A stretch of 42,286 bases of DNA, from positions 1-42,286 of the forward strand of contig CALXDR010000009.1 of the NCBI GenBank assembly GCA_944387115.1. The letters are read 5' to 3'. Position 1 is the stretch's first letter. Every line of letters starts with the position of its first letter. The position numbers and the translations under genes were made by a program. The notes beneath the pieces are model-generated. The model was not told the origin of the DNA and did not search any database. It saw only the letters and a program-made list of their open reading frames with translations. Positions 8,732 through 42,286 of the stretch are shown here, piece by piece. Origin of the DNA: an uncultured Oscillospiraceae bacterium (lineage in GTDB: Bacteria; Bacillota; Clostridia; Oscillospirales; Oscillospiraceae).

Positions 8732-8789
8732 GGTGAATGCTCCCTTCGTTGGGCGGATGCCGCCTTTGACACCCGCCGCAGATGGTGCT

Positions 8790-8840: not shown

Positions 8841-8862
8841 GTGGTCAGTTTGAGGTGATTGT

Positions 8863-10248
8863 ATGAAATCAGCGCCGCTCCGGCTCCCCGCTCTGGATGG
8901 CACAGCCCCCCTTTACCGCCAGCTCTACCACTACATTGCCGCCGCCATCCAGGCCGGACAGGTGCGCCCCGGGGAGAAGCTGCCCTCCAAGCGGCAGCTG
9001 TGCGCCACGCTGGGGGTGAGCATGAGCACGGTGGAGGGGGCGTATGGCCTGCTGACGGCGGAGGGGTATCTGTCCTCCCGGCCCCGTTCCGGCTATGTGG
9101 TGGCGGATGTGCTCCCCACCGCCCCGGCCGCTCCGGCGGATGTGCCCCCGCCTGCGCCCCCTGCGCCCCGGTGGCGCTTTGACTGCTCCACGGCGGCGGT
9201 GGACACCTCGGTGTTTCCCTTTTCCTCCTGGGCACGCATCACCAAGGAGGCGGTGTATCAAAATCCTGACCTGCTCCAGCGGGGGCATCCCCAGGGGGAT
9301 TTGCCCCTGCGGGGGGCGCTGTGCCAGCTGCTCTCCCAGTACCGGGGGGTGCGCTGTGTGCCCCAGCAGATTGTGGTGGGGGCGGGGGTGGACTACCTGC
9401 TCTCCCTGCTGCTGCAGCTGCTCCCCCACCACCGGAAGGTGGCCCTGGAGGACCCGGGGTATCCTACGGCCTATGGCGTGGTGGAGCGCCATGGCAGGCA
9501 GGGGGTGCCCATTCCGGTGGATGAGTGGGGGATGGACCCCGCCGCCCTGGCTGAGAGCGGGGCGCAGCTTGCCTACCTCACCCCCTCCCACCAGTTTCCC
9601 CTGGGGGTGACCATGCCGGTGGGGCGGCGCACCCGCCTGCTCCACTGGGCGTCTCAGGCGCCGGGGCGGTGGATTATCGAGGATGATTATGACAGCGAGT
9701 TCCGCTATGCCTCCCGCCCCATTCCCGCCCTCCAGGGGCTGGACGGCGGGGGACGGGTGGTGTACTTGGGCACCTTTTCCCGCTCCATTGCCCCCTCCAT
9801 CCGGGTGGCCTATATGATTTTGCCCCATCCCCTGGCAGAGGAGTACCGCCGGGTATTCTCCCACACCCCGTGCACCGTCTCCCGGTTTGAGCAGGAGGGA
9901 CTGCGGCGGTTTTTGGTGCAGGGGCTGTACGGGCGGCATCTGCGGCGGGTGGGCAATCTGTACCGGCGCAAGTGCGCCCGGTTCACCCGGGCGCTGGAGG
10001 AGATTCCGGGGGTAAAGCTGTGGGGGCAGGAGGCGGGACTGCACTTTCTCCTCACCCATCCGGCATTATCCGAAGGGCAGCTGGTGGAACGGGCGGCGGA
10101 GCAGTCGGTGCGGGTGAACCCCCTCAGCCAGTATTGCCACGCCGTCCAACCCCGTCCTTCCACGGTGGTGCTGGGGTATGCGGGCCTGGGCGAGGAGCAG
10201 CTGGAGCCTGCCGCCCGGGCGCTGGCGGCGGCGTGGGGCGGGATGTGA
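8863..10248 (+). CDS. MocR/PdxR-family transcriptional regulator (GntR HTH plus aminotransferase fold)
   Basis: A 461-residue protein. Residues ~12-78 form a GntR winged helix-turn-helix (PGEKLPSKRQL, STVEGAYGLL, YLSSRPRSGYVV). Residues ~115-461 form a fold-type I aminotransferase-like domain with the IEDDYDSEFRY motif that contacts PLP. In the family, PLP is held as a Schiff base on the Lys of GTFSK (GabR Lys312). Here the motif reads GTFSRS, with Arg307 (codon CGC, 9781-9783) in that position. The protein may therefore sense PLP non-covalently, sense another ligand, or not bind PLP. GAGGTG precedes the ATG by 5 nt. It most likely regulates the divergent ECF S component and itself. Confidence 0.93.
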   Translation: MKSAPLRLPALDGTAPLYRQLYHYIAAAIQAGQVRPGEKLPSKRQLCATLGVSMSTVEGAYGLLTAEGYLSSRPRSGYVVADVLPTAPAAPADVPPPAPPAPRWRFDCSTAAVDTSVFPFSSWARITKEAVYQNPDLLQRGHPQGDLPLRGALCQLLSQYRGVRCVPQQIVVGAGVDYLLSLLLQLLPHHRKVALEDPGYPTAYGVVERHGRQGVPIPVDEWGMDPAALAESGAQLAYLTPSHQFPLGVTMPVGRRTRLLHWASQAPGRWIIEDDYDSEFRYASRPIPALQGLDGGGRVVYLGTFSRSIAPSIRVAYMILPHPLAEEYRRVFSHTPCTVSRFEQEGLRRFLVQGLYGRHLRRVGNLYRRKCARFTRALEEIPGVKLWGQEAGLHFLLTHPALSEGQLVERAAEQSVRVNPLSQYCHAVQPRPSTVVLGYAGLGEEQLEPAARALAAAWGGM

Positions 10249-10249
10249 A

Positions 10250-10283
10250 AGCGCCGTACCCGGCTTATGCCGGGTACGGCGCT
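10250..10283. terminator. Shared hairpin between convergent MocR and queT genes
   Basis: AGCGCCGTACCCGGC (10250-10264) pairs perfectly with 10269-10283 around TTAT. It lies between two convergent stop codons. Neither strand has a strong U-tract (CTTTC on the minus strand), so termination strength is uncertain. Confidence 0.65.
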
Positions 10284-10309
10284 GCTGCGTGAGTGGGATA
10301 GGGATTGTG

Positions 10310-10825
10310 TCAATGCAGGGTGCGCTTGGCGGGGGCGAAGAGCTGGATACGGTCCATCACCTTGAGCAGCAGAGTGCCCAGCACATAGCAGGCCAGCGCC
10401 TCGCCAATGGCGAAGGTGACGGCGTTAAAGGCCAGCGCACCAAAGAATGCCTGGTTGACAGCGCCCACCTCTGCCCACGACCACATGGGGCACAAAATGA
10501 CCATGTTGACCAGAATGGGAGGGATGGGAGCCAGATACCACTTGGGCATTCTGGCGGTGAGCCAGGCGGCAATGCCGGTGGCCAGGGTGCCGAATATCAA
10601 ATCCACCACACCGTAGGGGGAGAGCAGATTGGTGAGGAAGCACCCCACCACCAGGCCGGGGGCCGTGGCAGGGAAGAGGAAGGGGAGCACCGTGAGGGCC
10701 TCGGCAAAGCGCACCTGCACCGCAGAGAAGGTCAGGCCGAATACATTGCCAAAGTACCCCATCAGGGTGTACAGGGCGGCCACCATAGCCGCCAGGGTCA
10801 AGTCTTGCACAGTCCATTTCCGCAT
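10310..10825 (-). CDS. queT: Queuosine-precursor transporter QueT (ECF S component)
   Basis: A 171-residue membrane protein with about five or six hydrophobic segments. It has the QueT marks: a short N-terminus leading into LAAMVAALYTLMGYF, the motif VQVRFAEALTVLPFLFP, and GLVVGCFLTNLLSPYGVVDLIFGTLAT. QueT proteins are predicted to import queuosine precursors such as preQ1 or queuine with the shared ECF energising module. The start at 10825 has GGAGG exactly 7 nt upstream. An unusually long leader of about 130 nt with a strong nested stem precedes it, and queT genes are frequently under preQ1 riboswitch control. Confidence 0.92.
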   Translation of the reverse strand: MRKWTVQDLTLAAMVAALYTLMGYFGNVFGLTFSAVQVRFAEALTVLPFLFPATAPGLVVGCFLTNLLSPYGVVDLIFGTLATGIAAWLTARMPKWYLAPIPPILVNMVILCPMWSWAEVGAVNQAFFGALAFNAVTFAIGEALACYVLGTLLLKVMDRIQLFAPAKRTLH

Positions 10826-19300: not shown

Positions 19301-19314
19301 TCATCACAACTTCA

Positions 19315-19349
19315 CCGGCGTCTATCCACAGGGATAGACGCCGGTTTTT
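19315..19349 (+). terminator. Rho-independent terminator of hpf
   Basis: CCGGCGTCTATCC (19315-19327) pairs perfectly with GGATAGACGCCGG (19332-19344) over a 4-nt loop, followed by TTTTT. Confidence 0.95.
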
Positions 19350-19437
19350 CCATCAAAAAAGGGCGCCAACGCCCCGGCCGCGGCAAGCGGGCCGGGCGCA
19401 GGGGAGGTGTTCCGCGGCGTGCATCTGGGCGGCCTGA

Positions 19438-19467
19438 CCGGCGCCTATCGGCACGGATAGACGCCGG
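19438..19467 (+). repeat. Second, degenerate copy of the hpf terminator hairpin
   Basis: CCGGCGCCTATC (19438-19449) and GATAGACGCCGG (19456-19467) repeat the stem at 19315-19344 with one mismatched pair and a T-poor tail. Between the two lie other GC hairpins (GGGCG-CCAA-CGCCC near 19361). 19480-19640 is notably AT-rich and has no gene. Confidence 0.75.
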
Positions 19468-19624
19468 CTTTCTCTGTGAGATTTTGTGGAAAGGGTAGAG
19501 CGTCAGGCCGAAAAAAATCACTTGCCTTCAAATGGGAATCTTATTTTTGGAAAAATGGTAAAAACAGAGGAGAAATCCTTGAAAATCAAACATTTTGGTG
19601 TCAAAAATCATGGGAAGGAACCGT

Positions 19625-19653
19625 TTGCCAATGAAAAAGGCTTGTAGTATAAT
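19625..19653 (+). promoter_or_regulatory. Near-consensus SigmaA promoter of the pel-like operon
   Basis: TTGCCA (19625-19630) and TATAAT (19648-19653) are separated by exactly 17 bp, about 39 bp before the first start codon. The AT-rich stretch before it could act as an UP element or regulator site. The leader is too short (about 32 nt) for a c-di-GMP riboswitch. Confidence 0.85.
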
Positions 19654-19691: not shown

Positions 19692-21830
19692 GTGGCGAAA
19701 TCGACCATGAAGGTATTGTTTGTTGGAAATTATGACCTGGCCGGTTCCTATCTGGCCCAGCGTCTGTATAAAGAGGGCAACCGCCTGTGCTGGATTACTT
19801 CGGAGAGCCACCGGGAGCTGTTCTTTCGGGGGACGAAGGGGAAGGTATACCGGGTGGAGCCGGACTACCACACCTGTGCGCAGATTCTGGCCATGGAGTC
19901 GGTGAACTATGTGGTCTTTCTAAGCGGCGGAATACGCTCGGGGGATACAGATGGGCATCAGTCCGGGCGGATGCTCCAGGCCATCCGCAGTGTGCTCCAC
20001 GCAGGGCTCAATTACAAGCTGACGGGGGTGGCGTACCTGTCAGCCAGCGAGCTGTCCAACCAGGATTTGCTCACTGCAGATTTGGAGGAGCTACGGGGGG
20101 CAGAACGGGTGGTGTCTGCCTTTTGCCAGGCCCACAGTATGCGGTGCACCATCCTGCGCCTGGGGCAGGTGTACGGCCGGGGGCTGTATGGGGACTTGGG
20201 ACTGCTGGGGGACGCCATGGAGAAAATCCAGGGGGGTGAAGGGGCGCTGTTCTGCCCCTTTACCCGGGATTCCCGTATAGACCTGCTGGACGGCGGGGAC
20301 GCCGCAGACGCCGTCTACCGTCTGGTGAGCGAGCTGCACAGCGGCGTATACACAGTGACCACGGGATACCCGGTGACCATGGAGCAGCTGTACACCACCG
20401 CAGCCCTGCAGCTGGGATACCAGGGCGAGATTTTTTACGGGGACCTGGTGCACCAGGAGAACCCCGCCGCCTGCGTGCCCCTCAAGGAGCAGACGGGGTG
20501 GATGCCCTTCCACCGCTTTGACCAGGAGGGCGGGCAGGCAGTGAGGAGCATTCTGGAGTTCAACCGCCAGGCAGCGGAGAACCAGGAGGAGGTGCGCCGG
20601 AAAAACATCGGCGGCAGTCCCCTGTTCAAGATGATTTTGGAGACGGGGCAGACGCTGCTGCTCTTTGTGGCCCTCCTCCTGCTCAGCAGCTTTATGCCCG
20701 ACTGGAGCGACCTGCGGCTGGTGGATTTGCGGCTGATGTATGTGGTCATTGTGGCCGTGTCCTTTGGTATGTGCCAGGGACTGCTGGCCACGGTGCTGGC
20801 CTGCGTGGCCTATATCCTCGGTGTGATGCGCTCCGGGGTGGACCCGTCCTATATGCTCTACAGCATTGATTACTGGGTGCCCTTTGCGGTGTACGGCACC
20901 GTGGGCGCCACGCTGGGCTATATCACCGGCAAGCGCAACGACGATTTGCACGTGCTGCAAAAGGAGTACGATGACCTGGATGAGGAGTACAACTTCCTCA
21001 AGGGCACCTACCGGGAGATGGCGCAGGTGAAAAACCACCTGCAAAAGCAGATTATGATCTCCAAGGAGAGCTTTTCCAGCATTTACGAAATCACCGAGCG
21101 GCTCAACTCCCTCAGCCCCCGTATGATTCTCTTCAAAACGGTGAAGGTGCTGGAGGAGACGATGGAGTGCCCCAATGTAGCCATTTACATCCTCCCCAAT
21201 CAGGGGGGCGGCTACGGGCGGCTGATGGCCTGCTCGGCCTCGCTGGCCTCCAAGCTCAATCCCTCCCTCAATGTGGAGAACATACCGGAAATTTGGGAGG
21301 CTGTTGGCCAGGGACAGATGTTTGTCAACTGTGATCTCATCCCAAACTATCCAGGCTATGTGATGCCCGTGTGCAACGGAGATACGGTGACCTCCATGGT
21401 CATGCTGTACGATTTGGAGCCGGAGAAGTTTACGGTGCACTACCGCAATCTGTTCCGCACGGTGGTGCAGCTGGTGCAGCAGAATATGGTGCGGGCCTGG
21501 CAGTATGAGAGCGCAGCCAAAGAGGGGCGCTACTTCCCCGGCAGCCGGGTGCTCCATCCCCAGGCCCTCCGGGAGGAGCTGGAGACCCTGGAAATGGCCA
21601 GCCAGGAGCTCAACTACCAGTACGATGTGGCCAGGGTATGCCTGCCCGCCGGTATGGACCAGGCGGAGGGCGTGCGCCGCATGGAGCGGCTGGTGCGGGG
21701 CACCGACCTGCTGGGCTGCAACGAGCAGGGAGAATACCAGGCGGTGTTCCTCTTTGCCGGGCAGGCAGGGCGGATGCAGATTGAGGAGCGCTTCCGGGCC
21801 AACGGCCTGGAGCTGGTGTGGGAGGTTTGA
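19692..21830 (+). CDS. pelD: PelD-like c-di-GMP receptor with N-terminal epimerase-like domain
   Basis: A 712-residue fusion. Residues ~5-300 resemble an NAD-dependent epimerase/dehydratase (GNYDLAG near the start, VYGRG later), but the YxxxK catalytic pair is absent: the equivalent helix reads LEELRGAE. Four membrane helices (~310-415), a coiled coil (~418-455) and a GAF-like domain (~465-600) follow. The C-terminal degenerate GGDEF domain has EQGEY (678-682) at the active site, but RGTD (669-672) five residues before it matches the RxxD c-di-GMP inhibitory site. This is the PelD architecture, in which the dead cyclase binds c-di-GMP to switch on polymer synthesis. GTG 19692 follows GAGG; ATG 19707 is an alternative without a nearby site. 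Confidence 0.85.
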   Translation: MAKSTMKVLFVGNYDLAGSYLAQRLYKEGNRLCWITSESHRELFFRGTKGKVYRVEPDYHTCAQILAMESVNYVVFLSGGIRSGDTDGHQSGRMLQAIRSVLHAGLNYKLTGVAYLSASELSNQDLLTADLEELRGAERVVSAFCQAHSMRCTILRLGQVYGRGLYGDLGLLGDAMEKIQGGEGALFCPFTRDSRIDLLDGGDAADAVYRLVSELHSGVYTVTTGYPVTMEQLYTTAALQLGYQGEIFYGDLVHQENPAACVPLKEQTGWMPFHRFDQEGGQAVRSILEFNRQAAENQEEVRRKNIGGSPLFKMILETGQTLLLFVALLLLSSFMPDWSDLRLVDLRLMYVVIVAVSFGMCQGLLATVLACVAYILGVMRSGVDPSYMLYSIDYWVPFAVYGTVGATLGYITGKRNDDLHVLQKEYDDLDEEYNFLKGTYREMAQVKNHLQKQIMISKESFSSIYEITERLNSLSPRMILFKTVKVLEETMECPNVAIYILPNQGGGYGRLMACSASLASKLNPSLNVENIPEIWEAVGQGQMFVNCDLIPNYPGYVMPVCNGDTVTSMVMLYDLEPEKFTVHYRNLFRTVVQLVQQNMVRAWQYESAAKEGRYFPGSRVLHPQALREELETLEMASQELNYQYDVARVCLPAGMDQAEGVRRMERLVRGTDLLGCNEQGEYQAVFLFAGQAGRMQIEERFRANGLELVWEV

Positions 21831-21832
21831 GT

Positions 21833-22744
21833 ATGGAGCGTGTGATGCAGGTGCTCCTCATCCTCCATGTGCTGCTTTCGCTGGTGTATGCCTATGACTG
21901 GTTCAAGGAGCATGAACGGGTGCAGGAGGCGCTGTTTCGCCTGGTGATGGTGCTACTCATTCCGGTGGTGGGCTTCCTCTTCTTTCATGTGCTGGATTTT
22001 GCCAGCCGCCGCAATCAGGAGGCGGATTTGGAGGGGCTGTACCTGGGATCCCAGAACTATGACAACGACCTGGAGCTGCTGCGCCCCATGGATATGGATG
22101 CCGAGCTCAACCGCACCTCGGTGGAGGATGCGCTGCGCATGGGAGATTACCGCACCCGGCGGCAGGCGGTGATGGAGACCCTCAAGACCGAGGACAATCT
22201 GGAGTACCTGGAGGTGCTGCGCAAGGCCCTTGAAAATGAGGACAGCGAAACCTCCCACTATGCCAGCGCCGTGATTATGGACATCCAGAAGAAGATTCAG
22301 GACAACCTCACCATGCGTGAGGCCGCCTTTGAGCGGGAGCCAGATAACGTGGCGGTGATGCAGGCGCTGGAGCAGGAGCTGTACCGGGTCATCACCAGCG
22401 GCGTGTACGACGAGCACAATTTGCACAAGTACTATGTGAAGTATAAAATGGTCTCCGACGCCCTGCTCAGCCAGGAGGAGCCCCAGGAGGAGTGGTTCCA
22501 CGGCCGTGTGCAGGTGGACCTGGCCACCGGGGATGTGGGCCATGCCCGACAGGTGTGCCGGCAGTTTCGCGACTGCTATCCAGACAGTGAGGATATGGTG
22601 GTGGACACCATCAAGGTGTGCATCAAGGCCAGCGACCGGGAGGGACTGGACGAGTTTTTGGCGCAAATTCCCTCCATGCCGGTGCTGCTCACCGATGAAG
22701 CGCTGCAATACATTCGGTTTTTCAGGAAGAGGGGGAGGACATGA
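21833..22744 (+). CDS. pelE: PelE-like membrane protein with helical repeats
   Basis: A 303-residue protein. Two hydrophobic helices (about 5-20 and 30-50) are followed by a soluble, charged, all-helical region of TPR-like character. This is the layout of PelE, which joins PelD and PelG in the inner-membrane Pel synthase complex. Sequence similarity is recognisable mainly by layout and position between PelD-like and deacetylase genes. GGGAGG sits 7 nt before ATG 21833, 2 nt after the pelD stop. The 3' end overlaps the next ATG (ATGA). Confidence 0.72.
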   Translation: MERVMQVLLILHVLLSLVYAYDWFKEHERVQEALFRLVMVLLIPVVGFLFFHVLDFASRRNQEADLEGLYLGSQNYDNDLELLRPMDMDAELNRTSVEDALRMGDYRTRRQAVMETLKTEDNLEYLEVLRKALENEDSETSHYASAVIMDIQKKIQDNLTMREAAFEREPDNVAVMQALEQELYRVITSGVYDEHNLHKYYVKYKMVSDALLSQEEPQEEWFHGRVQVDLATGDVGHARQVCRQFRDCYPDSEDMVVDTIKVCIKASDREGLDEFLAQIPSMPVLLTDEALQYIRFFRKRGRT

Positions 22745-24597
22745 AAGGATATTACCGCAGGCTGTCCATCGTTGTGGCGGTGGCCTGCCTGGTGGGCGTG
22801 CTCTTCTGGGGCATCAACACAGGCTGGCTGGTGGGAGACGCCCACCAGGCCCAGCAGAGCATCAGCATGGAGGGGGAGGCCCAGGGGAGCGTCACCGCCG
22901 AGGAGATGGCGCAGGCCAGCGCCAAGGCGCTGGTCATCTACGACCCCCAGGAGGAGGGCTCGGTCAACCTGGAGGAGAACCTGCAGCGGGTGCTCTACCA
23001 CCTGCGTATGCAGGCGGAATATCTCCCCGTGACCCGGCGGGACAGCGTGTCCTACCGCAATTATGACCTGGTCATCGTTGCCACAGGAGATTTGGAGAAG
23101 GGGATTGGCACCGACAGCAGCCGCCTGTTTGAGGCGGTGGAGGGGGGCACAAGGCTGCTGCTCACCTCCATGCCCACCAACATCGACGGGGTTCTGCGCC
23201 AAATCTACCGCAAGCTGGGGGTGCTGGAGCTGAAGGGGTACTGCAACACCCAGGGCTTCGCCTTTGAAGAGGAGCTGATGCCCGGCAGTGCGGGAGAGCG
23301 CTTTGCGGGGGATGGGTTTGCAGACTCTGCCCTGGAGGTGTCCCTGGACAGCGGCTGCACGGTGTACGCCCAGGCCTTCCGGGAGGGGGGCGGCACGGTG
23401 CCGATGGTTTGGACGGCGCAATTTGGAGGGGGCAGCGTGGGGGTCATCAACAGCACCTCCGCCGGCGGAGACTACTGGACGGGATTGCTGGCAGGGAGTG
23501 TCACCGCCCTGTTTGACACCTATCTCTACCCTGTGATCAACACCAAAACGGTGTTTATCGACGACTTCCCCTCCCCCCAGTACAACAGCGACAGCGACGT
23601 GATTCGCCAGGCGTACAACCGCACGGTGCGGGAGTTCTACCGGGACATCTGGTGGCCGGATATGCAGAGCGCCGCCAAGCAGGCGGGGGTGAAGTACACG
23701 GGGCTGTTTATGGCCACCTACAACAACATCGTGGACCCTGAGGACTTTACCTTCGGGGAGGACCCCATGGAGCAGTACTTTGGCAACAGCCTGTTGCGCG
23801 GCGGCTATGAGATGGGCGCCCACGGCTACAACCACCAGTCCCTGGGGCTGGCCGGGCAGATTCCCGCCGAGATGGGCTACCGTCCCTGGGCCACGGTGGA
23901 GGACATGGCCGCCTCCATCCGTCAGCTGCTCACCATTGCCGAGGAGATGTTCCCCAATGTGACCTTGTACACCTATGTGCCCCCCTCCAACTACCTCAGC
24001 CAGGAGGGGCGTGAGGCGGTGAAGCTGGCCATGCCCGATTTGCAGGTGATTTCCGGCGTGTATACCATGGAGGGCGAGGAAGGTGCGGTGTATGTCCAGG
24101 ACTTCCGGGTGGCGGAGGATGGGATTGCGGAATTTCCCCGCTTCTCCTCCGGTATGCTGGTGTCCGACTACGACCGGTTCTGTGTGCTCAACGGCCTGGG
24201 GCTGTACGGGGTGTTCTCCCACTTCCTCCACCCGGATGACATTCTGGATGCCGAGCGGGGCGGAGGCCTGGCCTGGCAGGAGCTGCTCGACCGGTACAGC
24301 CAGCTTCTGGACTATGTGAATGAAAAGTGCCAGGGCCTGCGGGGCGCCACCGCCGTGGAGGCGGGCACTGCCCTGCGCATGAAGGAGGCGCTGACCATGC
24401 GGGTGGAGTATGGAGAGGACCAGGTGACCGGGGCGCTGGGCAACTTCTACGGCCAGGCCAGCTTCTACCTGCGCACCGAAAAGACCCCCCAGGTGGACAA
24501 TGAGAGCTGCACCATTACCCGCCTGTGCCAGGAGGGGGCGGGGTACTATTATCTGGTGACGGTGAAGCAGCCTGAATTTTCCTTTTTGCTGAAGTGA
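22741..24597 (+). CDS. pelA: DUF2194 membrane-anchored polysaccharide deacetylase (Pel deacetylase)
   Basis: A 618-residue protein with one N-terminal membrane helix (about 8-27). A Rossmann-like region (LVIYDPQEEGS, VIVATGDLE) follows, then a carbohydrate esterase 4-like barrel. The motif FIDDFPSP (Asp274, Asp275) and HGYNH (His361, His365) match the catalytic and metal-binding elements of the PelA deacetylase; YVPPSNYLS is a likely third motif. The C-terminal ~80 residues look like a beta-sandwich. In Pel systems this activity partially deacetylates the amino-sugar polymer, making it cationic. The glycoside hydrolase domain of Pseudomonas PelA is missing, as in the PelA-DA form of Gram-positive clusters. 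Confidence 0.83.
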   Translation: MKGYYRRLSIVVAVACLVGVLFWGINTGWLVGDAHQAQQSISMEGEAQGSVTAEEMAQASAKALVIYDPQEEGSVNLEENLQRVLYHLRMQAEYLPVTRRDSVSYRNYDLVIVATGDLEKGIGTDSSRLFEAVEGGTRLLLTSMPTNIDGVLRQIYRKLGVLELKGYCNTQGFAFEEELMPGSAGERFAGDGFADSALEVSLDSGCTVYAQAFREGGGTVPMVWTAQFGGGSVGVINSTSAGGDYWTGLLAGSVTALFDTYLYPVINTKTVFIDDFPSPQYNSDSDVIRQAYNRTVREFYRDIWWPDMQSAAKQAGVKYTGLFMATYNNIVDPEDFTFGEDPMEQYFGNSLLRGGYEMGAHGYNHQSLGLAGQIPAEMGYRPWATVEDMAASIRQLLTIAEEMFPNVTLYTYVPPSNYLSQEGREAVKLAMPDLQVISGVYTMEGEEGAVYVQDFRVAEDGIAEFPRFSSGMLVSDYDRFCVLNGLGLYGVFSHFLHPDDILDAERGGGLAWQELLDRYSQLLDYVNEKCQGLRGATAVEAGTALRMKEALTMRVEYGEDQVTGALGNFYGQASFYLRTEKTPQVDNESCTITRLCQEGAGYYYLVTVKQPEFSFLLK

Positions 24598-24606
24598 GGA
24601 GACGCT

Positions 24607-26034
24607 ATGAGAATTTGTCTGATTGCGGAAGGGTGCTACCCCTATGTGGCCGGCGGGGTGTCCTCCTGGATTCAGATGCTGGTAAAGGGGATGCCCCAGC
24701 ACGAATTTGTGCTGTGCACCATTGGGGCGACCAAGGACCAGCGGGGGGTGTTCAAGTACGAAATCCCCGAAAATATCGTGGAAATCCACGAGAACTTTCT
24801 GGATGAGCTGATGGAGGGGAGTTTTCGCACCAAGGACGGCAGGGTGCTGGCCCCCAAGGAGCACCAGGCCATGCTGGACCTGATTACCAAGGACAGCGTG
24901 GACTGGGACACCATCTTTGATATGTTCGGCCGGGGCGGCCGGTATAAGGCCAACCAGTTTTTGAGCAGCAGGGGCTTTTTGGACATTGTGAAGGACGCCT
25001 GTCAGGAGGAGTACCGCATGACCCCCTTCAACGATGTGTTCTGGACCATTCGCTCCATGCTCCTGCCCATTTTGAACATCATGGCCTGCTCCATCCCCCA
25101 GGTGGACGTGTTCCACTCTGTGTCCACGGGATATGCCGGACTGCTGGGGGCGATGTTCCAGCACAAGACGGGGCGGCCCCTGCTGCTCACCGAGCACGGC
25201 ATTTACACCCGGGAGCGGGAGGAGGAAATCCTCAAGGCCCGGTGGGTGGATGTATACTTCAAGCAGACCTGGATTAACTTCTTTGCCGGCATGTCCAGGG
25301 CGGCCTACCACAAGGCAAGCCGCATTTTCTCCCTGTTTTACAAGGCCAGAGAGCTGGAAATTGAGCTGGGGGCCCCGGCGGAGCGGTGCTCTGTCATTCC
25401 CAACGGCATTAAGATGAGCCGCTTTCAGGACATCCCGCCCATCGCCGACGACGGGCACCCCCTGGTGCTGGGGGCGGTGATTCGCGCGGTGCCCATCAAA
25501 GACCTCAAGACCATGATTCACGCCTTTGACCTGGTGCGCCGTCGTATGCCGGAGGCAAAGCTCTACCTCATCGGCCCCACCGACGAGGACCCGGAGTATT
25601 ATCAGGAGTGCCTGGACCTCATCCGCAATCTGGAGTGCACCGGCATTACCTTTGTGGGGCGGGTGAATGTGGCCGAGTGGTATGGGCAGATGGACATTCT
25701 CCTCCTCAGCAGTGTGTCTGAGGGACAGCCCTTCGTCATTTTGGAGGCTATGGCCTCCCACCGCCCGGTGATTGCCACCGATGTGGGCTCCTGCCGGGAG
25801 CTGGTGGAGGGCAACGAGGACGGGTTTGGGCCGTCCGGTATGATTGTGCCGGTGATGAACCCCAGCCTGATGGCCCGGGCCATTCTCCAGCTGGGCAGCG
25901 ACCGGGCCATGCAGCGCGCCATGGGGGAGGCCGGGTTTCGCCGGGTGGACCGGTTTTACCGGGAAGAGGACTTTCTGGCTGCGTATGAAAAGGAGTATGA
26001 GGAGGTGAAGGCCCTTGGCGGGCGTGGGGTTTGA
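24607..26034 (+). CDS. pelF: Pel polysaccharide glycosyltransferase PelF
   Basis: A 475-residue GT4-family (GT-B fold) transferase. The N-terminus MRICLIAEGCYPYVAGGVSSW is the PelF signature. LLTEHGIYTRERE and the nucleotide-sugar motif SEGQPFVILEAM (E-x7-E) are complete. PelF polymerises the Pel chain in the cytoplasm from UDP-sugars, while PelD-PelE-PelG hold and export it. GAGGAG lies before the ATG, 9 nt after the preceding stop. The 3' end overlaps pelG by 20 bp. Of all genes in the cluster this one identifies the system most firmly. Confidence 0.95.
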   Translation: MRICLIAEGCYPYVAGGVSSWIQMLVKGMPQHEFVLCTIGATKDQRGVFKYEIPENIVEIHENFLDELMEGSFRTKDGRVLAPKEHQAMLDLITKDSVDWDTIFDMFGRGGRYKANQFLSSRGFLDIVKDACQEEYRMTPFNDVFWTIRSMLLPILNIMACSIPQVDVFHSVSTGYAGLLGAMFQHKTGRPLLLTEHGIYTREREEEILKARWVDVYFKQTWINFFAGMSRAAYHKASRIFSLFYKARELEIELGAPAERCSVIPNGIKMSRFQDIPPIADDGHPLVLGAVIRAVPIKDLKTMIHAFDLVRRRMPEAKLYLIGPTDEDPEYYQECLDLIRNLECTGITFVGRVNVAEWYGQMDILLLSSVSEGQPFVILEAMASHRPVIATDVGSCRELVEGNEDGFGPSGMIVPVMNPSLMARAILQLGSDRAMQRAMGEAGFRRVDRFYREEDFLAAYEKEYEEVKALGGRGV

Positions 26035-27499
26035 GCTGAAAAAGCTCTTCCGGCAAAACGGCGGCTATCTCAATACCGCAAAGGCCTATGCGGTATCCGC
26101 AGTGGTCACCGAGGGGCCTTTGGTGCTCAACATCGTTATGATGGTGGTGCTCAAGTCCCTGATGGGGCTGTTTCACGGGGGGTATGCAGACCAGGAGGTG
26201 TTCCTCATCACCTCCACGTACATCATGATTTTCTCCCTGATGCTCTCCAACACGGTGCTGATGTTTGTCAGCCGGTATGTGTCTGACTGCATCTATGAAC
26301 GGCGGGCCTCGGACATTCTGCCCTCCTTTTTTGCCGTGGTGTTCTACCTGCTCCTCTTCGGCGGAGTGGTGGGCATGGTGTATCTCAGCACCCTGTCTGC
26401 GCCCCCCATCCACAAGCTGCTCAATCTGGTGCAGTTCTGCGTCATGCTGGTGGTGTGGGTACAGATGGCCTATCTGTCCGCCATTAAGAAGTACACCAAA
26501 ATCCTCATTGGCTTTCTGGAGTCCACATTCCTCTCCATTGCCTCGGCGCTGACGCTGATGCTGCTCAAGGTATCCCCCTTGACGGCGGTGTTTGCCGCCT
26601 CCACCCTGGGGGTGCTGGTGATGATGCTGATTTATCTCCAGGAGATGGTGACCTACTATCCCCGGGGGGAGTTTTCTCTGGTGGGGTTCTTCCCCGCCCT
26701 GCAAAAGTTCAAGATTCTCATTCCGGTGGGGGCGTTTATGACCTTTGGTCTGTTCGGACACAATCTTGTGTACTGGATGAGCGACTACAGCACCCAGGTG
26801 ATGGAGCATATGGTGTACTGCATGAAGTACGATGTGCCCTGCTTTTACGCCAGCCTCACCATCATTCCCTTTCTGGTCACCTTCACCGTGTCCATGGAGG
26901 TGAAGTTTTTCCAGGCCTACCGCAAGTGCTTTGATACCATTCAGTACGGCGGCACCCTCCAGCACATCATGCTGGAGAAGGAGAACTTGTGCAAGACCCT
27001 GTTCCGGGAGCTGGCCCATGTGTTTGAGGTGCAGTTTTTCATCGAGGTCATTGCCATTACCTTTGTGGGCAACATTTTGCAAAATGTGCAGTTTGACCAG
27101 GAGATGATGGGAATCTTCCGCTACCTGTGCATTGGCTACTGCTTCTATGCCCTGTTTAAGAGTCTGGTCATTGTGCTGCTCTACCTGGATGACCGGAAGG
27201 GGGCCTGCCTGCTCTCGGGGCTGTTCGCTCTGCTGTCCCTGGCAGGGTCGGTGGCGGGGCTGTTTGCGGGCATTGAAACCTGGGGGCTGGGGTTCCTGGG
27301 GGCCGCCGCCATCACCTGTGTGGTGGGGGTAATCTATGTAAAGCACTTTGTCATGGGTCTGGAATACCATGTGTTCTGCACCCAACCCCTGGTGCACGAG
27401 GAGCCGAAGGGGATTTTTCTCGAGATTGCCCGCTGGGTGGAGCACCGTGAGCGGGACATCATAGACAAGAGGAGGATGAAGCACAATGAACATCTCTAA
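26015..27499 (+). CDS. pelG: Pel polysaccharide exporter PelG
   Basis: A 494-residue membrane protein with about 12 transmembrane segments, related to MOP/Wzx flippases. The start GVGFELKKLF and the stretch AKAYAVSAVVTEGPLVLNI are characteristic of PelG. It probably forms the export channel with PelD and PelE. The start is TTG at 26015 with GGAGG 9 nt upstream; no better start keeps the N-terminal signature. It overlaps pelF by 20 bp and the CotH-like gene by 14 bp, so translation is likely coupled along the operon. Confidence 0.94.
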   Translation: MAGVGFELKKLFRQNGGYLNTAKAYAVSAVVTEGPLVLNIVMMVVLKSLMGLFHGGYADQEVFLITSTYIMIFSLMLSNTVLMFVSRYVSDCIYERRASDILPSFFAVVFYLLLFGGVVGMVYLSTLSAPPIHKLLNLVQFCVMLVVWVQMAYLSAIKKYTKILIGFLESTFLSIASALTLMLLKVSPLTAVFAASTLGVLVMMLIYLQEMVTYYPRGEFSLVGFFPALQKFKILIPVGAFMTFGLFGHNLVYWMSDYSTQVMEHMVYCMKYDVPCFYASLTIIPFLVTFTVSMEVKFFQAYRKCFDTIQYGGTLQHIMLEKENLCKTLFRELAHVFEVQFFIEVIAITFVGNILQNVQFDQEMMGIFRYLCIGYCFYALFKSLVIVLLYLDDRKGACLLSGLFALLSLAGSVAGLFAGIETWGLGFLGAAAITCVVGVIYVKHFVMGLEYHVFCTQPLVHEEPKGIFLEIARWVEHRERDIIDKRRMKHNEHL

Positions 27500-29234
27500 C
27501 CCTCTGCGCCGTGTGTGCGCTGCGGGACTGTGTCTGTCCCTGTGCCTGTGCGGGTGCACACTGCTGGAGGGCGGTGACACCGTCCAGGACGCCGGGGAGA
27601 CGCCCCAGGCCACCCACCGGGTGGACATCGCCCAGCCGGAGAGCATCGACACCGCCGGAGGCCGGGAGGACACGGCGGTCTACAGCCAGGACGACCCGGA
27701 CAGTCTGGTCTACTTCTATGTCACCGTGCGCATGGGCACCGAGGCCGAGGGCACCAACCACACCTTTGACGAGGTGAAAAACGCCATTCGATTTGTGAAC
27801 AGCGCCCATGTGGACAACAGCGTCTATGCAGAAGCGCTGGTGCAGGTGGGGGACGAAAACGGCCCTGTGTCCGGTATGCTGGGCTACGGGCAGTCTGCCA
27901 GCAACGCAACCATCCGCATTCGGGGCAACTCCTCCACCACCATGCCCCTCAAGTCCTACAAGCTGTCCCTGGACGACGATGCGGGGCTGTGGCGGGGACA
28001 GTCCAACATCGCCCTGAACAAGCACGCCTTTGACAGCAGCCGCCTGCGCAACAAGCTCTATTTCGACCTGCTGCGGGAGGTGCCCGAGGTGCCCAGCCTG
28101 CGCACCCAATTTGTGCGCCTGTTCATCAAGGACGAGACGGCCGGACAGACGGAGTTTGAGGACTACGGGGTATACACCCAGGTGGAGGTGCCGGGGAAGA
28201 AGTACCTGGGCAACCACGGGCTGGACACCTCCGGCTATCTCTACAAGGCCATCTCCTTCAATTTCGAGATGAAGGAGGGGCTGAAAAACTTCGACGACCC
28301 CGAATTTGACCCAGAGGTGTTCAAAACCATCCTCAACTGCAAGGGGCGGCAGGACAACGCACGGCTGATTGAGATGGTGGAGGCGGTCAACGATATGACC
28401 CGGGACATCAACGAGGTGGTGGACACCTACTTTGACCGGGACAACTACATTGCCTGGATGGCCTTTAACATCCTGATGGGCAACATCGACACCACCGAGC
28501 AGAATTTCTACCTGTACAGCCCCCTCAACAGCCAGAAGTGGTACTTCATTCCCTGGGACAGCGACGCCAGCCTGTACCGGCAGGAGCGGGAGCTCAAGGG
28601 CGGCTCCGGGGACTACGACGACTGGGAGAGCGGCCTGTCCATCTACTGGGGGGTGGTGCTCCACCAGCGCTTCCTCAAGGTGGAGCAAAATCGCCTGGAT
28701 TTGGCGGCCAAGGTGGAGGAGTTTTACCAGCAGTTCTCCCCCCAGCGGGTGCAGGCCCTGGCAGATTCGTACAACCAGGTCATTCGTCAGGACTTGTACC
28801 ATATGCCCGACCTGCTCAACCTCACAGTGACCACCGACGAGCGGGAGGAGCTGCTGGGCAGCATTGGAGAGGAGATTACCATCAACTATGACCTGTTCCA
28901 AAAGTCCCTCAACGCCCTGATGCCGTTCTGGCAGTGGTCGGAGGACAGGGGGGATACGGTCCATCTGTCCTGGGGAGAGGCCTATGACTTCCAGGCCAAA
29001 AGCGTCACCTATCAGGTGACGGTGAGCCAGTTCCCGGATATGTCCAACCCCGTCTACCAGGAGAGCGGGCTGAGCCAGCTGGAAGTGGATTTGCCCAAGA
29101 CGGTGCTCACCCCCGGAACCTACTATATGAAGGTGGAGGCCACCAGCGAGGATGGACGGGTGACCCGCTCCATGAACAAAAGCCAGGTCAACGGGGCGTA
29201 TTATCCCGGTGTGTATCAGTTCACCGTCAACTAA
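27486..29234 (+). CDS. CotH-like kinase lipoprotein
   Basis: A 582-residue secreted protein with a lipobox (LCLCGC, Cys near residue 24), so it should be anchored outside the cytoplasmic membrane. Residues ~75-430 form a CotH-kinase domain: TIRIRGNSS, LKSYKL, the RNKLYFDLLREV helix, GVYTQVE and IPWDSDASL, whose acidic residues resemble the CotH catalytic metal-binding site. The last ~90 residues look like a fibronectin III-type domain. CotH proteins phosphorylate spore-coat proteins; homologues outside spores have unknown targets. The 14-bp overlap with pelG puts it in the same operon. Confidence 0.86.
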   Translation: MNISNPLRRVCAAGLCLSLCLCGCTLLEGGDTVQDAGETPQATHRVDIAQPESIDTAGGREDTAVYSQDDPDSLVYFYVTVRMGTEAEGTNHTFDEVKNAIRFVNSAHVDNSVYAEALVQVGDENGPVSGMLGYGQSASNATIRIRGNSSTTMPLKSYKLSLDDDAGLWRGQSNIALNKHAFDSSRLRNKLYFDLLREVPEVPSLRTQFVRLFIKDETAGQTEFEDYGVYTQVEVPGKKYLGNHGLDTSGYLYKAISFNFEMKEGLKNFDDPEFDPEVFKTILNCKGRQDNARLIEMVEAVNDMTRDINEVVDTYFDRDNYIAWMAFNILMGNIDTTEQNFYLYSPLNSQKWYFIPWDSDASLYRQERELKGGSGDYDDWESGLSIYWGVVLHQRFLKVEQNRLDLAAKVEEFYQQFSPQRVQALADSYNQVIRQDLYHMPDLLNLTVTTDEREELLGSIGEEITINYDLFQKSLNALMPFWQWSEDRGDTVHLSWGEAYDFQAKSVTYQVTVSQFPDMSNPVYQESGLSQLEVDLPKTVLTPGTYYMKVEATSEDGRVTRSMNKSQVNGAYYPGVYQFTVN

Positions 29235-29248
29235 AGGGAGGGTGCGGC

Positions 29249-29959
29249 ATGGACAAGGCGCCAGTGTTCCGCTACGAACAGAAGTATAAAATCACCAGCT
29301 ACCAGATGGATGAGCTGAAACAGGCCCTGTCCCATCTGCTGCAGCCTGACCCCCATGCCCAGGCCAACGGGGGGTACATGATTCGCAGTATGTACTTTGA
29401 TGATATGTACCAATCCGCCTATCTGGAGAAGGTAGACGGGGTATACCACCGGAAAAAATACCGTATTCGGGTGTACGACTGTGGAGATCGGGTGATCAAC
29501 CTGGAGTGCAAGAACAAGCACGGCCCGTACATCTTCAAAGAGTCGGCGCGGCTGACCCGGGCGGAGTACGAGGGGATTTTGCAGGGGGATGTGGACTTCC
29601 TCCTCCACCGGGAGGAGCCCATGGCCAGGGAGTTTTTTCTGGACTACCGCACCAAGCTCCTGCGCCCCAAGGTGATTGTGGACTATGACCGGGAGCCGTA
29701 TATTCTGGACGCGGGCACAGTGCGCATCACCTTTGACCGGGAGATACGGGCGGTGCAGGTGGGGGAGAGCCTGTTTGACCCTGCTGCCCCGTCCTATACG
29801 GTGTATCCGCCGGGAGAGGAGATTTTGGAGATCAAATTCACCGGATACCTGCCTGAGTTTGTCCGCCGGATTTTTCAGGTGCGCAACTATACCCAGGTGT
29901 CCGCCTCGAAATACTGCCTGTGCGTAGACCGGCTGCGAGAGATTGGAAGAGGAGAGTAA
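29249..29959 (+). CDS. VTC-domain polyphosphate polymerase-like protein
   Basis: A 236-residue soluble protein equal to one VTC catalytic domain (PF09359). The tunnel-lining basic and acidic residues are in place: FRYEQKY (7-13), RSMYFDD, RKKYRIRVY, LECKNKH, YDREPY and the late EIKF. Related eukaryotic domains make polyphosphate from ATP. Bacterial single-domain versions lack SPX and membrane parts and usually lie beside a DUF4956 gene, as here. Activity may be polyphosphate synthesis or another triphosphate reaction. It starts 14 bp after the CotH gene with a GGGAGGG site. Confidence 0.88.
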   Translation: MDKAPVFRYEQKYKITSYQMDELKQALSHLLQPDPHAQANGGYMIRSMYFDDMYQSAYLEKVDGVYHRKKYRIRVYDCGDRVINLECKNKHGPYIFKESARLTRAEYEGILQGDVDFLLHREEPMAREFFLDYRTKLLRPKVIVDYDREPYILDAGTVRITFDREIRAVQVGESLFDPAAPSYTVYPPGEEILEIKFTGYLPEFVRRIFQVRNYTQVSASKYCLCVDRLREIGRGE

Positions 29960-29965
29960 TGCCCT

Positions 29966-30637
29966 ATGAGTTTTGCAGATTTGTTTAAGAAGTCCATTTT
30001 GGAAAAGCTGCCCCAGGAGGTATCCCCTGAAATTCTGGTGCTCACCCTGCTGGCGGCGACCGTGCTGGGGATGGGGATTTTCCTGATATACCGCCGGTGC
30101 TTCATCGGCGTGGTGTACGACCACTCCTTCAACATATCCCTGGTGGTGATGACGGTGCTGGTGGCTGTGATCATCGTCACCATCAGCTCCAACATCACCC
30201 TGTCCCTGGGTATGGTGGGCGCACTGAGTATTGTGCGTTACCGCACGGCGGTGAAAAGTCCCCTGGATTTGATGTTCATGTTCTGGGCCATTACCACGGG
30301 GATTGCGGTGGGAGCCAACTATTTTTACATCGCCTGCGGCTCCTTTGTGTTCGTGGCGCTGATTTTCTTCCTGCTCAAGAAGTGGAAGGGGGACACCACC
30401 ACCTATATGCTGGTGCTCAACTACCCCACCCAGCTGGAGACGGAGGAGGAGGTGCGCCGTGTCCTCAAAACGTGCAAGGGCAAGGTGCGCTCCAAGGTGG
30501 TCAAAAAGGGGCGCACGGAGCTGACGGCGGAGGTGTCTTTGCGCAACGACAATCTGAACCTCACCACCCGGATGTCCGCCATTGCGGGGGTGGAGGATGT
30601 GACCCTGGTGCAGTACCGGGGCAGCTATGAGGGGTAA
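29966..30637 (+). CDS. DUF4956 membrane protein
   Basis: A 223-residue protein with four to five membrane helices in the first ~145 residues. The conserved DUF4956 segment MVGALSIVRYRTAVKSPLD is followed by a long hydrophobic stretch. A cytoplasmic ferredoxin-like C-terminal domain (~150-223) completes it. Function is unknown. Its regular pairing with VTC-domain genes, from memory, suggests it forms a membrane channel or scaffold for the VTC partner. It begins 6 bp after the VTC gene and overlaps the next gene by 11 bp. Confidence 0.85.
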   Translation: MSFADLFKKSILEKLPQEVSPEILVLTLLAATVLGMGIFLIYRRCFIGVVYDHSFNISLVVMTVLVAVIIVTISSNITLSLGMVGALSIVRYRTAVKSPLDLMFMFWAITTGIAVGANYFYIACGSFVFVALIFFLLKKWKGDTTTYMLVLNYPTQLETEEEVRRVLKTCKGKVRSKVVKKGRTELTAEVSLRNDNLNLTTRMSAIAGVEDVTLVQYRGSYEG

Positions 30638-32036
30638 GGGCGCAAGGCTGGCGGGGGTTCTGGCGGCGGCAGCGGTGGTACTTGGTGCGCTGGGCTATGC
30701 CGCCTGCCCCATCACATGGGAGGAAGGTATGCTGTATCGTAAGGTGACGGTGCTGGAGCCGGAAGAGGGGCAGGCCCCGGCGTCCAACCCCCTCAAGGGG
30801 TGGATGCCCTGGTCAACCGCCCAGGCCTCGGAGCACTATGACAACACGCTGGTCTTTGCCCTGGTGAGCTGGGCGCAGCTGGAGCCGGAGGAAGGGTGCG
30901 TGGATTTCGAGGGGGTGGAGGCAGCCCTCAACCTCCCCTATTGGCGGGAACGGGGGGTGCGCTTTGTCCTGCGTTTGGTGTGCGACTACCCGGATGATGC
31001 GGGGGGATTGGACATCCCCCAGTGGCTGTATGACCGCATTGGCGGAGATGGGCAGTGGTACGACAACCAGTACGGCAAGGGTTTTTCCCCCAACTATGGA
31101 AACCCCCGCTTGCTCCAGGCCCACGGGGCGCTGCTGGAACAGCTGGGCGCACACTACGACCAGGACCCCTATCTGGCCTGGGTTCAGCTGGGCAGTCTGG
31201 GGCACTGGGGGGAGTGGCATGTGAACGCCTCGTCGGGCATCAAGCCCTTTCCTGAGCAGGTCATCACCGACCGCTATGTGCGCCAGTATCTGGAGGCCTT
31301 CCCCAGCAAACGACTCCTGCTCCGCCGGCCCTATGCCATCGGCGGGGAGGCGGGGCTGGGGCTGTACAACGATTCCTTTGCCCAGCCCCAGTCCCACGAC
31401 ACCTGGCTGTCCTGGATTGCCAACGGGTATGTGTCCGACCAGAACGGGGAGTCCCTGGCGGGGATGCCCCAGTTCTGGTGCAAGGCCCCCTCTGGCGGCG
31501 AGTTTGCCAGCGGGCGGGAGATAGAGGACTATCTGGGTGCGGGATTGGAGGAGACCCGGGACTACATCCGGCGCAGCCACACCACATTCCTGGGCCCCAG
31601 GTGTGTGTTTGACGTGGAGGACGGCTCCTGCGCCCAGGCGGCAGAGGAGCTGAGCCGGGAGATGGGGTATACCCTGCGGGTCAACCGCTGCACCACCCGC
31701 ACCCCCCTGTTTTCCGCCCGGATGGAGCTGGTGATGGAGTGGGAGAACACCGGGCTGGCGCCCATCTATGAGAACTGGCCCATTCAGATTCGCCTGGTGG
31801 ACCGGCAGGGCAAGGAGGTTTTGTGCCAGCAGGTGGATGGGGGCATCCACCGCTGGGGCACGGGGGTACACCGGCTGTGCTGCACGCTGGAGGGGGCGGA
31901 GAATCTGCCCCGGGGGACTTATGTTCTGGAGGTAGGCATTCTCGACCCCATCACGGGGGCGCCAGGGGTGGCGCTGGCCAATGGCGGAGCGCAGCCTGAC
32001 GGCAGCTACCGCATGGGGCAAGTGGTAAAGGGTTAG
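30627..32036 (+). CDS. DUF4874/DUF4832 glycoside hydrolase-like exported protein
   Basis: A 469-residue protein with an N-terminal hydrophobic signal or anchor (8-26). Residues ~50-330 resemble a TIM-barrel glycosidase: SNPLKGWMPW, VSWAQLEPEEG, VRFVLRLV, and GHWGEWHVN, whose Glu is a candidate acid/base. Residues ~350-469 form a beta-sandwich (WENTGLAPIYENWPIQIRLVD) of the DUF4832 type. Enzymatic activity is unproven for the family. As the last gene of the pel-like run, it may fill the role of the missing PelA hydrolase domain, trimming polymer outside the cell. Its ATG lies inside the stop region of the DUF4956 gene. Confidence 0.8.
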   Translation: MRGKGARLAGVLAAAAVVLGALGYAACPITWEEGMLYRKVTVLEPEEGQAPASNPLKGWMPWSTAQASEHYDNTLVFALVSWAQLEPEEGCVDFEGVEAALNLPYWRERGVRFVLRLVCDYPDDAGGLDIPQWLYDRIGGDGQWYDNQYGKGFSPNYGNPRLLQAHGALLEQLGAHYDQDPYLAWVQLGSLGHWGEWHVNASSGIKPFPEQVITDRYVRQYLEAFPSKRLLLRRPYAIGGEAGLGLYNDSFAQPQSHDTWLSWIANGYVSDQNGESLAGMPQFWCKAPSGGEFASGREIEDYLGAGLEETRDYIRRSHTTFLGPRCVFDVEDGSCAQAAEELSREMGYTLRVNRCTTRTPLFSARMELVMEWENTGLAPIYENWPIQIRLVDRQGKEVLCQQVDGGIHRWGTGVHRLCCTLEGAENLPRGTYVLEVGILDPITGAPGVALANGGAQPDGSYRMGQVVKG

Positions 32037-32064: not shown

Positions 32065-32670
32065 ATGGATGTGAAGGTGATTACCATCAGCCGGGAGTTC
32101 GGCTCCGGCGGGCGCACGGTGGGCAGGTGTCTGGCGCAGCTGCTTGGGGTGCCCTATTACGACAAGGATTTGGTGCGCAAGGTGGCAGAGCAGACCGGGT
32201 TGGACGAGTCCTATGTGGCCGAGCAGGAGGATCATGCCAGGCCCTGGGGCAGCTTGCTCTCCTACGCCTTTTCCGGCTTTGGCGGGCACACCATGGGCGG
32301 GCTGTCGGCCGATGATTGGCTGTGGGTCAGCCAGAGCCGGGTGATTGAGGAGCTGGCAGACCAGGGCCCCTGCATTCTGGTGGGGCGGTGCGCCGACTAC
32401 ATCCTCCGCCACCGGAAGGATGGGTTTCATGTCTTTCTCCACGCCCCCATCCAGGAGCGGGCCGAGCGTATCGTGCGCCTGTATGGGGCGTCGGAGGCGG
32501 AGCCGGAACAGCGTCTGGAGGAGAAGGACAGCCGCCGCCGCACCTACTACAAGCACTACACCGGGCGGGAATGGGGCATGAGCCAGAACTATCACCTCAG
32601 CCTGGACACCAGCGTGCTGGGGGTGGAGGGCACCGCCCGGCTCATTGCCCAGGTGGTGGGGAGAGGCTGA
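32065..32670 (+). CDS. Cytidylate kinase-like family protein
   Basis: A 201-residue P-loop kinase of the cytidylate kinase-like family (PF13189). SREFGSGGRTVG (10-21) is the nucleotide-binding loop, in the GSGG form typical of the family. GPCILVGRCADYIL and a lid region rich in Arg and Lys follow. The true substrate is unknown; most members lie outside nucleotide synthesis operons. GGGGGAG precedes the ATG by 6 nt. It is 28 bp downstream of the DUF4832 gene and before a strong terminator, so it may be the last gene of the pel-like transcript. Confidence 0.85.
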   Translation: MDVKVITISREFGSGGRTVGRCLAQLLGVPYYDKDLVRKVAEQTGLDESYVAEQEDHARPWGSLLSYAFSGFGGHTMGGLSADDWLWVSQSRVIEELADQGPCILVGRCADYILRHRKDGFHVFLHAPIQERAERIVRLYGASEAEPEQRLEEKDSRRRTYYKHYTGREWGMSQNYHLSLDTSVLGVEGTARLIAQVVGRG

Positions 32671-41907: not shown

Positions 41908-42286
41908 CCGGGGCTGCGCACTTCTGTGATGTCACGCCTCGCCTGTTCGCAACGGCTGGCTTCCCTCCGATTCGGGACAGGCATGGCGGGCTGTGCCCGC
42001 CTTATGCCTATCCCTCACTTCGGTCCATCCAGCCTGCTCACGACGGCTCGGACGCTTCTCAGATGTCATGCTCCGCCTCCCTCCGTGTACGCTCGGCTTC
42101 CCTCCGACTCAGGGCAAACCCGGCCGGGCTGTGCCCGCCCTGGGCTTTGCCCTTCGCTCCGGTCCATCCGAGCTACTCCGGGGGCTACGCACTTCTGTGA
42201 TGTCACGCCTCGCCTGTTCGCAACGGCTGGCTTCCCTCCGATTCGGGACAGGCATGGCGGGCGTTGCCCGCCTTATGCCTATCCCT
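41908..42286 (+). repeat. ~133-bp interspersed repeat array, A-B-A order, cut by window end
   Basis: A type-A unit (about 41930-42060) is followed by a divergent type-B unit (about 42062-42180) and another type-A unit that runs off the window. Hairpin stems are GGCGGGC-TGT-GCCCGCC, GGCCGGGC-TGT-GCCCGCCC and GGCGGGC-GTT-GCCCGCC. It is in the same orientation as the array at the left end. Confidence 0.93.

Follow-up and report, generated by a model that had tools for sequence, protein, structure and literature searches.

A pel operon and its neighbors

Why should the genes of a Pel-type exopolysaccharide synthase run straight on into genes for a kinase-like CotH protein, a polyphosphate polymerase-like VTC domain and two proteins of the DUF4956 and DUF4832 families? 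The question is raised by a stretch of 42,286 nucleotides (here called the window) that makes up contig 9 (CALXDR010000009.1) of GCA_944387115.1, the draft genome of an uncultured Oscillospiraceae bacterium (97 contigs totalling 1.68 Mb, with a completeness of 94.65%). It is highly likely, on the evidence below, that nine genes at positions 19692 to 32036 are a Gram-positive-type Pel operon of the published type, in which PelD carries a domain of the short-chain dehydrogenase/reductase (SDR) kind, held in one probable transcription unit with a surface cassette. In the genomes sampled, the VTC-DUF4956-CotH part of that cassette is mostly not a Pel module. It is a portable gene set with a distribution of its own.

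The nine tightly packed open reading frames (ORFs) all lie on the plus strand, with successive spacings of -13, -4, 9, -20, -14, 14, 6 and -11 bp, and the ORF list and these spacings agree with the contiguous run described in an earlier, sequence-only reading of the window. The single strong promoter that it placed ahead of the operon can be recognized as a predicted sigma-70-like site (TTGCCA-17-TATAAT, plus strand, 19625 to 19653) with 11 of 12 consensus positions, and a plus-strand terminator-like hairpin (19314 to 19345, a 14-pair stem and then a T run) sits in the gap that separates the operon from the preceding gene. An internal terminator and promoter between the synthase and accessory genes had been named as the finding that would separate the two modules. 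A consensus scan of the pelG-cotH junction, where the two genes overlap by 14 bp, revealed neither kind of site. The nine genes are probably one transcription unit, and the transcript is perhaps longer, as a tenth plus-strand ORF, cytidylate kinase-like (32065 to 32670) and of unsure operon membership, starts 28 bp past the DUF4832 gene. The pre-operon gap also contains a pair of hairpin-like repeats, at 19314 to 19345 and at about 19437 to 19472, with ATAGACGCCGG common to both; the first of them was the one that scored as terminator-like.

Families were assigned with Pfam and NCBIfam profiles, and the named matches of genes 3 to 9, all on the plus strand like genes 1 and 2, exceed the curated cut-offs. 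Gene 3 (22741 to 24597) encodes a PelA deacetylase-like protein of family DUF2194 (E value of 5.2e-115) with predicted deacetylase activity, gene 4 (24607 to 26034) the GT4 glycosyltransferase PelF (NF038011, E value of 2.3e-122, 409.5 bits versus a cut-off of 100) and gene 5 (26015 to 27499) the membrane exporter PelG (PF16933, E value of 1e-112, 377.8 bits versus 29). Gene 2 (21818 to 22744) has no family match above cut-off and is called PelE-like from its position and its similarity to the correspondingly placed ORFs of three other loci. Gene 1 (19692 to 21830) is PelD-like, with an SDR-type N-terminal domain, a transmembrane (TM) region, a GAF-like region and a C-terminal region. Its epimerase match spans residues 137 to 217, and its GAF and DUF4118 matches are below the Pfam cut-offs, the call as a PelD with TM and GAF parts being carried by an end-to-end alignment (21 to 25% identity) with the proteins at the PelD position of two same-genus genomes. 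Judged by eye against SDR motifs, the SDR-type domain presumably is degenerate. The PelF, PelG and DUF2194 profiles and the PelD alignment support the earlier proposal that the first five genes fit a Gram-positive-type Pel synthase.

The C-terminal region of PelD keeps an RxxD motif (R669 and D672) and has no GGDEF signature. The motif is present in 62 of 69 PelD ORFs, the remaining seven being without that region. Since the genome holds 13 GGDEF places, cyclic di-GMP (c-di-GMP) plausibly controls the synthase in this bacterium. Streptococci are different in this respect: their PelD has lost its GGDEF domain according to the accessible text of PMC7112168, and by that of PMC12345266 no diguanylate cyclase is known in Streptococcus intermedius.

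Families and residues of the accessory proteins

The assignment of the last four genes to CotH, VTC, DUF4956 and DUF4832 was borne out by Pfam. Gene 6 (27486 to 29234) encodes the CotH-family kinase-like protein (E value of 7.4e-62), and a lipobox-like signal, LCGC, with the cysteine at position 24, can be read in its sequence. D335 and D358 align with D224 and D247 of the solved chain 5jd9_A, at the same spacing of 23. Through this chain and the equal spacing, they were matched to the catalytic residues Asp228 and Asp251 in the CotH protein of Bacillus subtilis (PMC7821199, as far as its text was available). Both aspartates are kept in all 44 pel-linked CotH proteins.

Gene 7 (29249 to 29959) encodes a VTC-domain polyphosphate polymerase-like protein of 236 aa (E value of 8.6e-35). 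Searched alone against the PDB it gave no match, an alignment-based query being needed, and a profile built from it and ten other cassette VTC proteins matches yeast Vtc4 structures (best E value of 3.4e-16). With the numbering counted on the VTC/Vtc4 alignment, it keeps 10 of the 10 residues that we take to line the Vtc4 tunnel (K200, R264, R266, K281, K294, R361, R373, E426, K428 and K458), and these are also kept in 54/54 pel-linked, 23/24 two-component-linked, 3/3 GT2-linked and 25/25 other VTC proteins of the tree set described below. A degenerate, inactive VTC or CotH was considered and rejected, the tunnel residues and catalytic aspartates being kept. We also discarded the idea that VTC is a plain stand-in for polyphosphate kinase, PPK1 being found in 12 of the 46 genomes with VTC and in 30 of the 253 others. 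The window's own genome gave no match in a search for PPK1.

The DUF4956 membrane protein of gene 8 (29966 to 30637, E value of 2.3e-9) has a helical membrane part, in which an RxR motif is invariant, and an ACT-like C-terminal domain; its structural model (pLDDT of 81.7) has the same parts as those given in the accessible text of PMC12345266. Foldseek returned nothing at an E value of ≤0.001, and the best match, to the C-terminal domain of MgtC (E value of 1.4e-3), covers the small C-terminal domain, so that from the model the protein appears to be MgtC-like. Gene 9 (30627 to 32036, E value of 7e-15) encodes the DUF4832 protein, with an N-terminal helix, a TIM-barrel glycoside hydrolase-like part and a C-terminal beta domain. 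For its model (pLDDT of 92.8) the best Foldseek matches were GH35 beta-galactosidases and endoglycoceramidase II (E values of 1e-10 to 5e-9), with modest TM-scores on the query (0.24 to 0.39) that point to no particular subfamily. Two glutamates, E196 and E292, are the same in every one of 27 aligned sequences. Elsewhere in the window, a tandem repeat (134 bp in 2.8 copies) occupies positions 41910 to 42286, at the contig end.

Conserved order across PelG loci

With four aligned PelG proteins as the query we scanned a named genome collection and kept the best 80 of at least 513 confirmed matches, a set that leans towards relatives of the window's PelG. Together with the window and the loci L005, L006 and L067 this gave 84 loci, 65 of them with at least 5 kb downstream; several of the 65 are near copies of one another, and the counts that follow are not independent events. 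CotH was found in 53, VTC in 55, DUF4956 in 53 and DUF4832 in 35. The first three occur together in 50 of the 65 loci, in the order CotH, VTC, DUF4956 in 50/50, and all four in 29, again with the order kept in every one (29/29), and six loci hold some but not all of CotH, VTC and DUF4956. The hosts include Lachnospiraceae, Oscillospiraceae, Paenibacillaceae, Coriobacteriaceae, Atopobiaceae and Anaerolineaceae, and those with the conserved order span Bacillota, Actinomycetota and Chloroflexota. Cultured relatives that carry the operon include Blautia schinkii (L162) and Paenibacillus curdlanolyticus (L156), the latter without DUF4832 as the following gene. The continuity of synthase and accessory genes claimed for the window is therefore a conserved neighborhood in related genomes. 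This high linkage applies to PelG proteins related to that of the window.

The three records from Treponema, Selenomonas and Selenomonadaceae among the 65 are all without the cassette. In L144 (Anaerovibrio) and L149 (Veillonellaceae), which have less than 5 kb downstream and hence are outside the 65, a protein of 680 aa (7679 to 9721) or 677 aa (8549 to 10582), respectively, comes right after PelG and replaces the cassette; it looks exported, has no Pfam match and has a C-terminal end resembling that of an outer-membrane barrel. Bacteria that have no outer membrane may use the cassette in place of the corresponding export part, an idea that we consider weak, as it involves few clades and is confounded by descent, and two Liquorilactobacillus loci (L163 and L175) also are without the cassette. 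A GH114-like gene follows the barrel-like protein in L144. The Treponema pel locus L154 has two DUF4832-profile genes and then a 2302-aa open frame, without CotH, VTC or DUF4956. The same-genus loci L005 and L006 contain pelDEADAFG without these three, with a DUF4832-profile match further downstream.

The cassette outside Pel

Across 299 genomes of the phylum to which the window belongs, VTC matched at 55 places spread over 46 genomes; all were examined (54 loci and the window), some of them cut by contig ends. DUF4956 lies within 1.5 kb of VTC at 52 of the 55 and CotH within 4.5 kb at 31 or more, the CotH counts being lower bounds because L065 and L085 hold a CotH by Pfam that the profile cut-off missed. 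PelG was found within 6 kb at two places only, the window and L067, and at least 28 of the 55 have VTC, DUF4956 and CotH without PelG. PelG itself is present in 12 of the 299 genomes (11 above cut-off). In this sample, most cassettes are without Pel and most PelG genomes are without an adjoining cassette. These counts disagree with PMC12345266, the available text of which states that the three-gene synteny is not found outside pel.

One cluster of neighboring ORFs, of the two-component type, has 54 members in 27 loci (nine were scanned, five histidine kinases and four response regulators). Its members make up 20/42 of the unlabelled ORFs at position -1 of VTC and 20/46 at -2; no other offset with at least 20 ORFs exceeds 4/47. 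Two-component genes lie within two genes upstream at 21 of the 54 VTC loci. Another cluster, of 16 ORFs, is of the carbohydrate-binding Cthe_2159 type (five scanned, 5/5 matching PF14262) and is found near VTC in 15 loci, mostly in the place of CotH. In L052, L083 and L096 the cassette stands beside a GT2 synthase and a HEAT or bactofilin-like protein, with DHHW/AlgX-type genes also in the last two, so that in these three loci the accessories accompany a different type of polysaccharide. The window's genome holds a second VTC-DUF4956-CotH cassette outside pel (L086; contig C47 of the genome, 1 to 12500), next to a response regulator. It contains the only other VTC and CotH matches of the genome, and its CotH is truncated by the contig end. 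Beside its VTC, the response regulator was the only gene recognized; the next ORF behind it, of 417 aa, matches nothing in Pfam. L065, L084, L085 and L094 show a further form, with DUF4956-VTC in this or the reversed order and, as third protein, one that combines lamin-tail and leucine-rich-repeat domains; L065 and L085 also have CotH.

Pel-linked and two-component-linked CotH differ at R146, K156 and D360. In the two-component-linked type, from loci within L046 to L099, D360 is replaced by Asn in 14 of 15 (the other has a gap) and K156 by Tyr or Phe in 15 of 15, and the 11 CotH proteins classed as other have Asn (8) or Asp (3) at D360. From these residue differences, substrate or activity may vary with the type of CotH. 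The lipobox pattern was seen in 25/44 pel-linked, 1/15 two-component-linked, 0/3 GT2-linked and 0/11 other CotH proteins, and as start codons are uncertain these counts support no inference.

Concatenated VTC and DUF4956 sequences from the 106 of 138 loci in which both genes are close and long enough were used for a quick tree with SH-aLRT support only. The pel label requires 5 changes on this tree, perhaps too many since the PelG loci L135 and L166 were labelled as other, compared with a mean of 35.8 when labels were shuffled (0 of 500 shuffles as low). The pel rows are found mainly in two sets: one of 49 rows (support of 97) has 47 labelled pel, and one of 8 rows, mostly Paenibacillaceae (support of 95), has 7. 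Twenty-four Pel-free cassettes, the second copy of the window's genome included, form a separate set (support of 99). Pel-linked and free cassettes are therefore distinct lineages that coexist in one genome. Since the pel-linked forms cluster, neighborhood and tree show few joinings of the cassette to pel, followed by inheritance together with it, with no direction of change implied.

Published relatives of the operon

The operon is a further member of a type already in print. PMC7112168 (2020), in its accessible text, reports that in species of streptococci and clostridia the genes for CotH, a polyphosphate polymerase, DUF4956 and DUF4832 directly adjoin pelDEADAFG. It also describes an extra, likely inactive epimerase domain of PelD that accompanies such accessory genes in streptococci, clostridia and actinobacteria. 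The window shares the families, the contiguity of accessories with the core and the SDR-type PelD domain, and its PelD keeps the C-terminal region with RxxD that is compared above with the streptococcal protein. Thus the coupling of pelG to the accessory genes put forward by the sequence-only reading is real, but it is not new, and it has partly been tested genetically. PMC12345266 (2025), again in the part available, reports the deletion of each gene of the S. intermedius pel locus, in which SIR_1591 to SIR_1594 are the same accessory set and all five core genes are needed for Pel. Deletion of SIR_1594 (CotH) gave less Pel and that of SIR_1592 (four TM segments and an ACT domain), which we equate with the DUF4956 protein, gave more; in both cases aggregation in 10% artificial sputum (ASM) fell by more than half. 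SIR_1591, like the window protein a TIM barrel with DUF4832, has hydrolase activity, and its deletion gave no phenotype.

Other known systems share parts of the arrangement. Bacillus cereus ATCC 10987 has the same core order, pelDEADAFG, but the neighbors described in the accessible text of PMC7112168 are a divergent PelAH and GalE and not the CotH set. The NELoc-2 locus of Clostridium perfringens (PMC2879425 and PMC11677781, available in part) lists two VTC genes with CotH, HEAT-repeat and glycosyltransferase genes, the shape of the GT2 form seen in L052. A chitin-synthase-like glycosyltransferase is found where Pel would be, pel not being named in these texts, and a 226-aa gene given as tubulin is probably DUF4956. 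With the Vtc4 catalytic domain of the yeast VTC complex, the window shares the VTC domain by profile and the ten tunnel residues; unlike in yeast, the domain stands alone here (236 aa), and the DUF4956 membrane protein beside it is encoded by a gene of its own.

Possible roles of the cassette

From family knowledge and the published genetics, we infer the following scheme for the window's genome. PelF would polymerise N-acetylgalactosamine (GalNAc) from UDP-GalNAc and PelG would export the chain, the two forming a complex with PelD and PelE that would be turned on by c-di-GMP binding at the RxxD of PelD. Outside, the DUF2194 protein would deacetylate the chain and the DUF4832 hydrolase would trim it. 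On the inner side of the membrane VTC would use ATP to synthesize polyphosphate, with DUF4956 as a putative MgtC-like membrane partner, and CotH, as an exported kinase-like protein on the outer face, might tune the amount and cohesion of the polymer layer. VTC, DUF4956 and CotH would then act here as the same portable cassette that elsewhere stands beside two-component systems and GT2 synthases.

Several points weigh against this scheme. CotH kinases use ATP, and we know of no ATP source outside the membrane here. Nine of the 65 PelG loci, among them the same-genus L005 and L006, are without CotH, VTC and DUF4956. In the 299-genome sample VTC stands beside PelG in 2 of the 12 PelG genomes; in another (G174) it is on a different contig, and the remaining nine, including G248 with its PelG at a contig end, have no VTC match. 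Pel therefore does not need the cassette. In S. intermedius Pel was still detected after deletion of any one of the four accessory genes, and the accessible text of PMC12345266 describes no aggregation loss for deletion of SIR_1593 (the VTC homologue) or SIR_1591, so the roles of these two are perhaps minor or conditional.

The sequence-only reading suggested that the polymer is further modified or anchored, perhaps with phosphate. In this view the extra genes act on Pel itself, and CotH, with polyphosphate or ATP as donor, would phosphorylate the chain into a charged or wall-anchored polymer, which we regard as quite unlikely. Catalytic residues are retained in the pel-linked CotH and VTC, the accessory order is conserved with pel, and the differences of pel-linked CotH at R146, K156 and D360 are compatible with a Pel-specific substrate, but the idea is weakened by the 28 or more VTC places that have the cassette without PelG and by the persistence of Pel in the S. 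intermedius deletions. The CotH substrates named in the available text of PMC7821199, moreover, are spore coat proteins. A bolder proposal, and a very doubtful one, is that VTC and DUF4956 together are a bacterial two-part polyphosphate synthase-exporter, the exported polyphosphate serving as phosphoryl donor for exported CotH kinases where ATP is absent.

The opposite view, that the accessories are a general phosphate- or envelope-stress cassette which shares a transcript with pel only for reasons of timing and does not act on the polymer at all, is unlikely in our opinion. The concentration of two-component-type ORFs just upstream of VTC, the MgtC-like character suggested for DUF4956 and the second cassette of the same genome, outside pel and adjoining a response regulator, would fit it. 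It agrees poorly with the clustering of pel-linked cassettes on the tree, with their greater uniformity at the DUF4956 and CotH positions checked, with the presence of the same set in three GT2-synthase operons and with the shifts in the amount of Pel upon deletion of the CotH or DUF4956-type gene (PMC12345266, available text). That the window merely shows two unrelated operons abutting in a contig has a negligible chance of being right: the absence of the cassette from L005, L006 and most PelG genomes of the 299-genome sample could be cited for it, but pelG and cotH overlap, the consensus scan found no terminator or promoter at their junction, and the same order in 50 of 65 PelG loci of three phyla rejects chance adjacency.

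The reading of the locus as an SDR-PelD type Pel operon joined to a portable surface cassette adds one more uncultured genome to a described type, and the gain lies in the wider map of the cassette, which links the pel accessories to the gene set listed in C. perfringens NELoc-2. The role of the accessories is to be sought outside Pel too, with the two-component and GT2 contexts as other handles on their function. If the proposed two-part polyphosphate synthase-exporter were true, Pel, the GT2 polymers and the two-component-controlled surface layers would be clients of one extracellular phosphorylation system.

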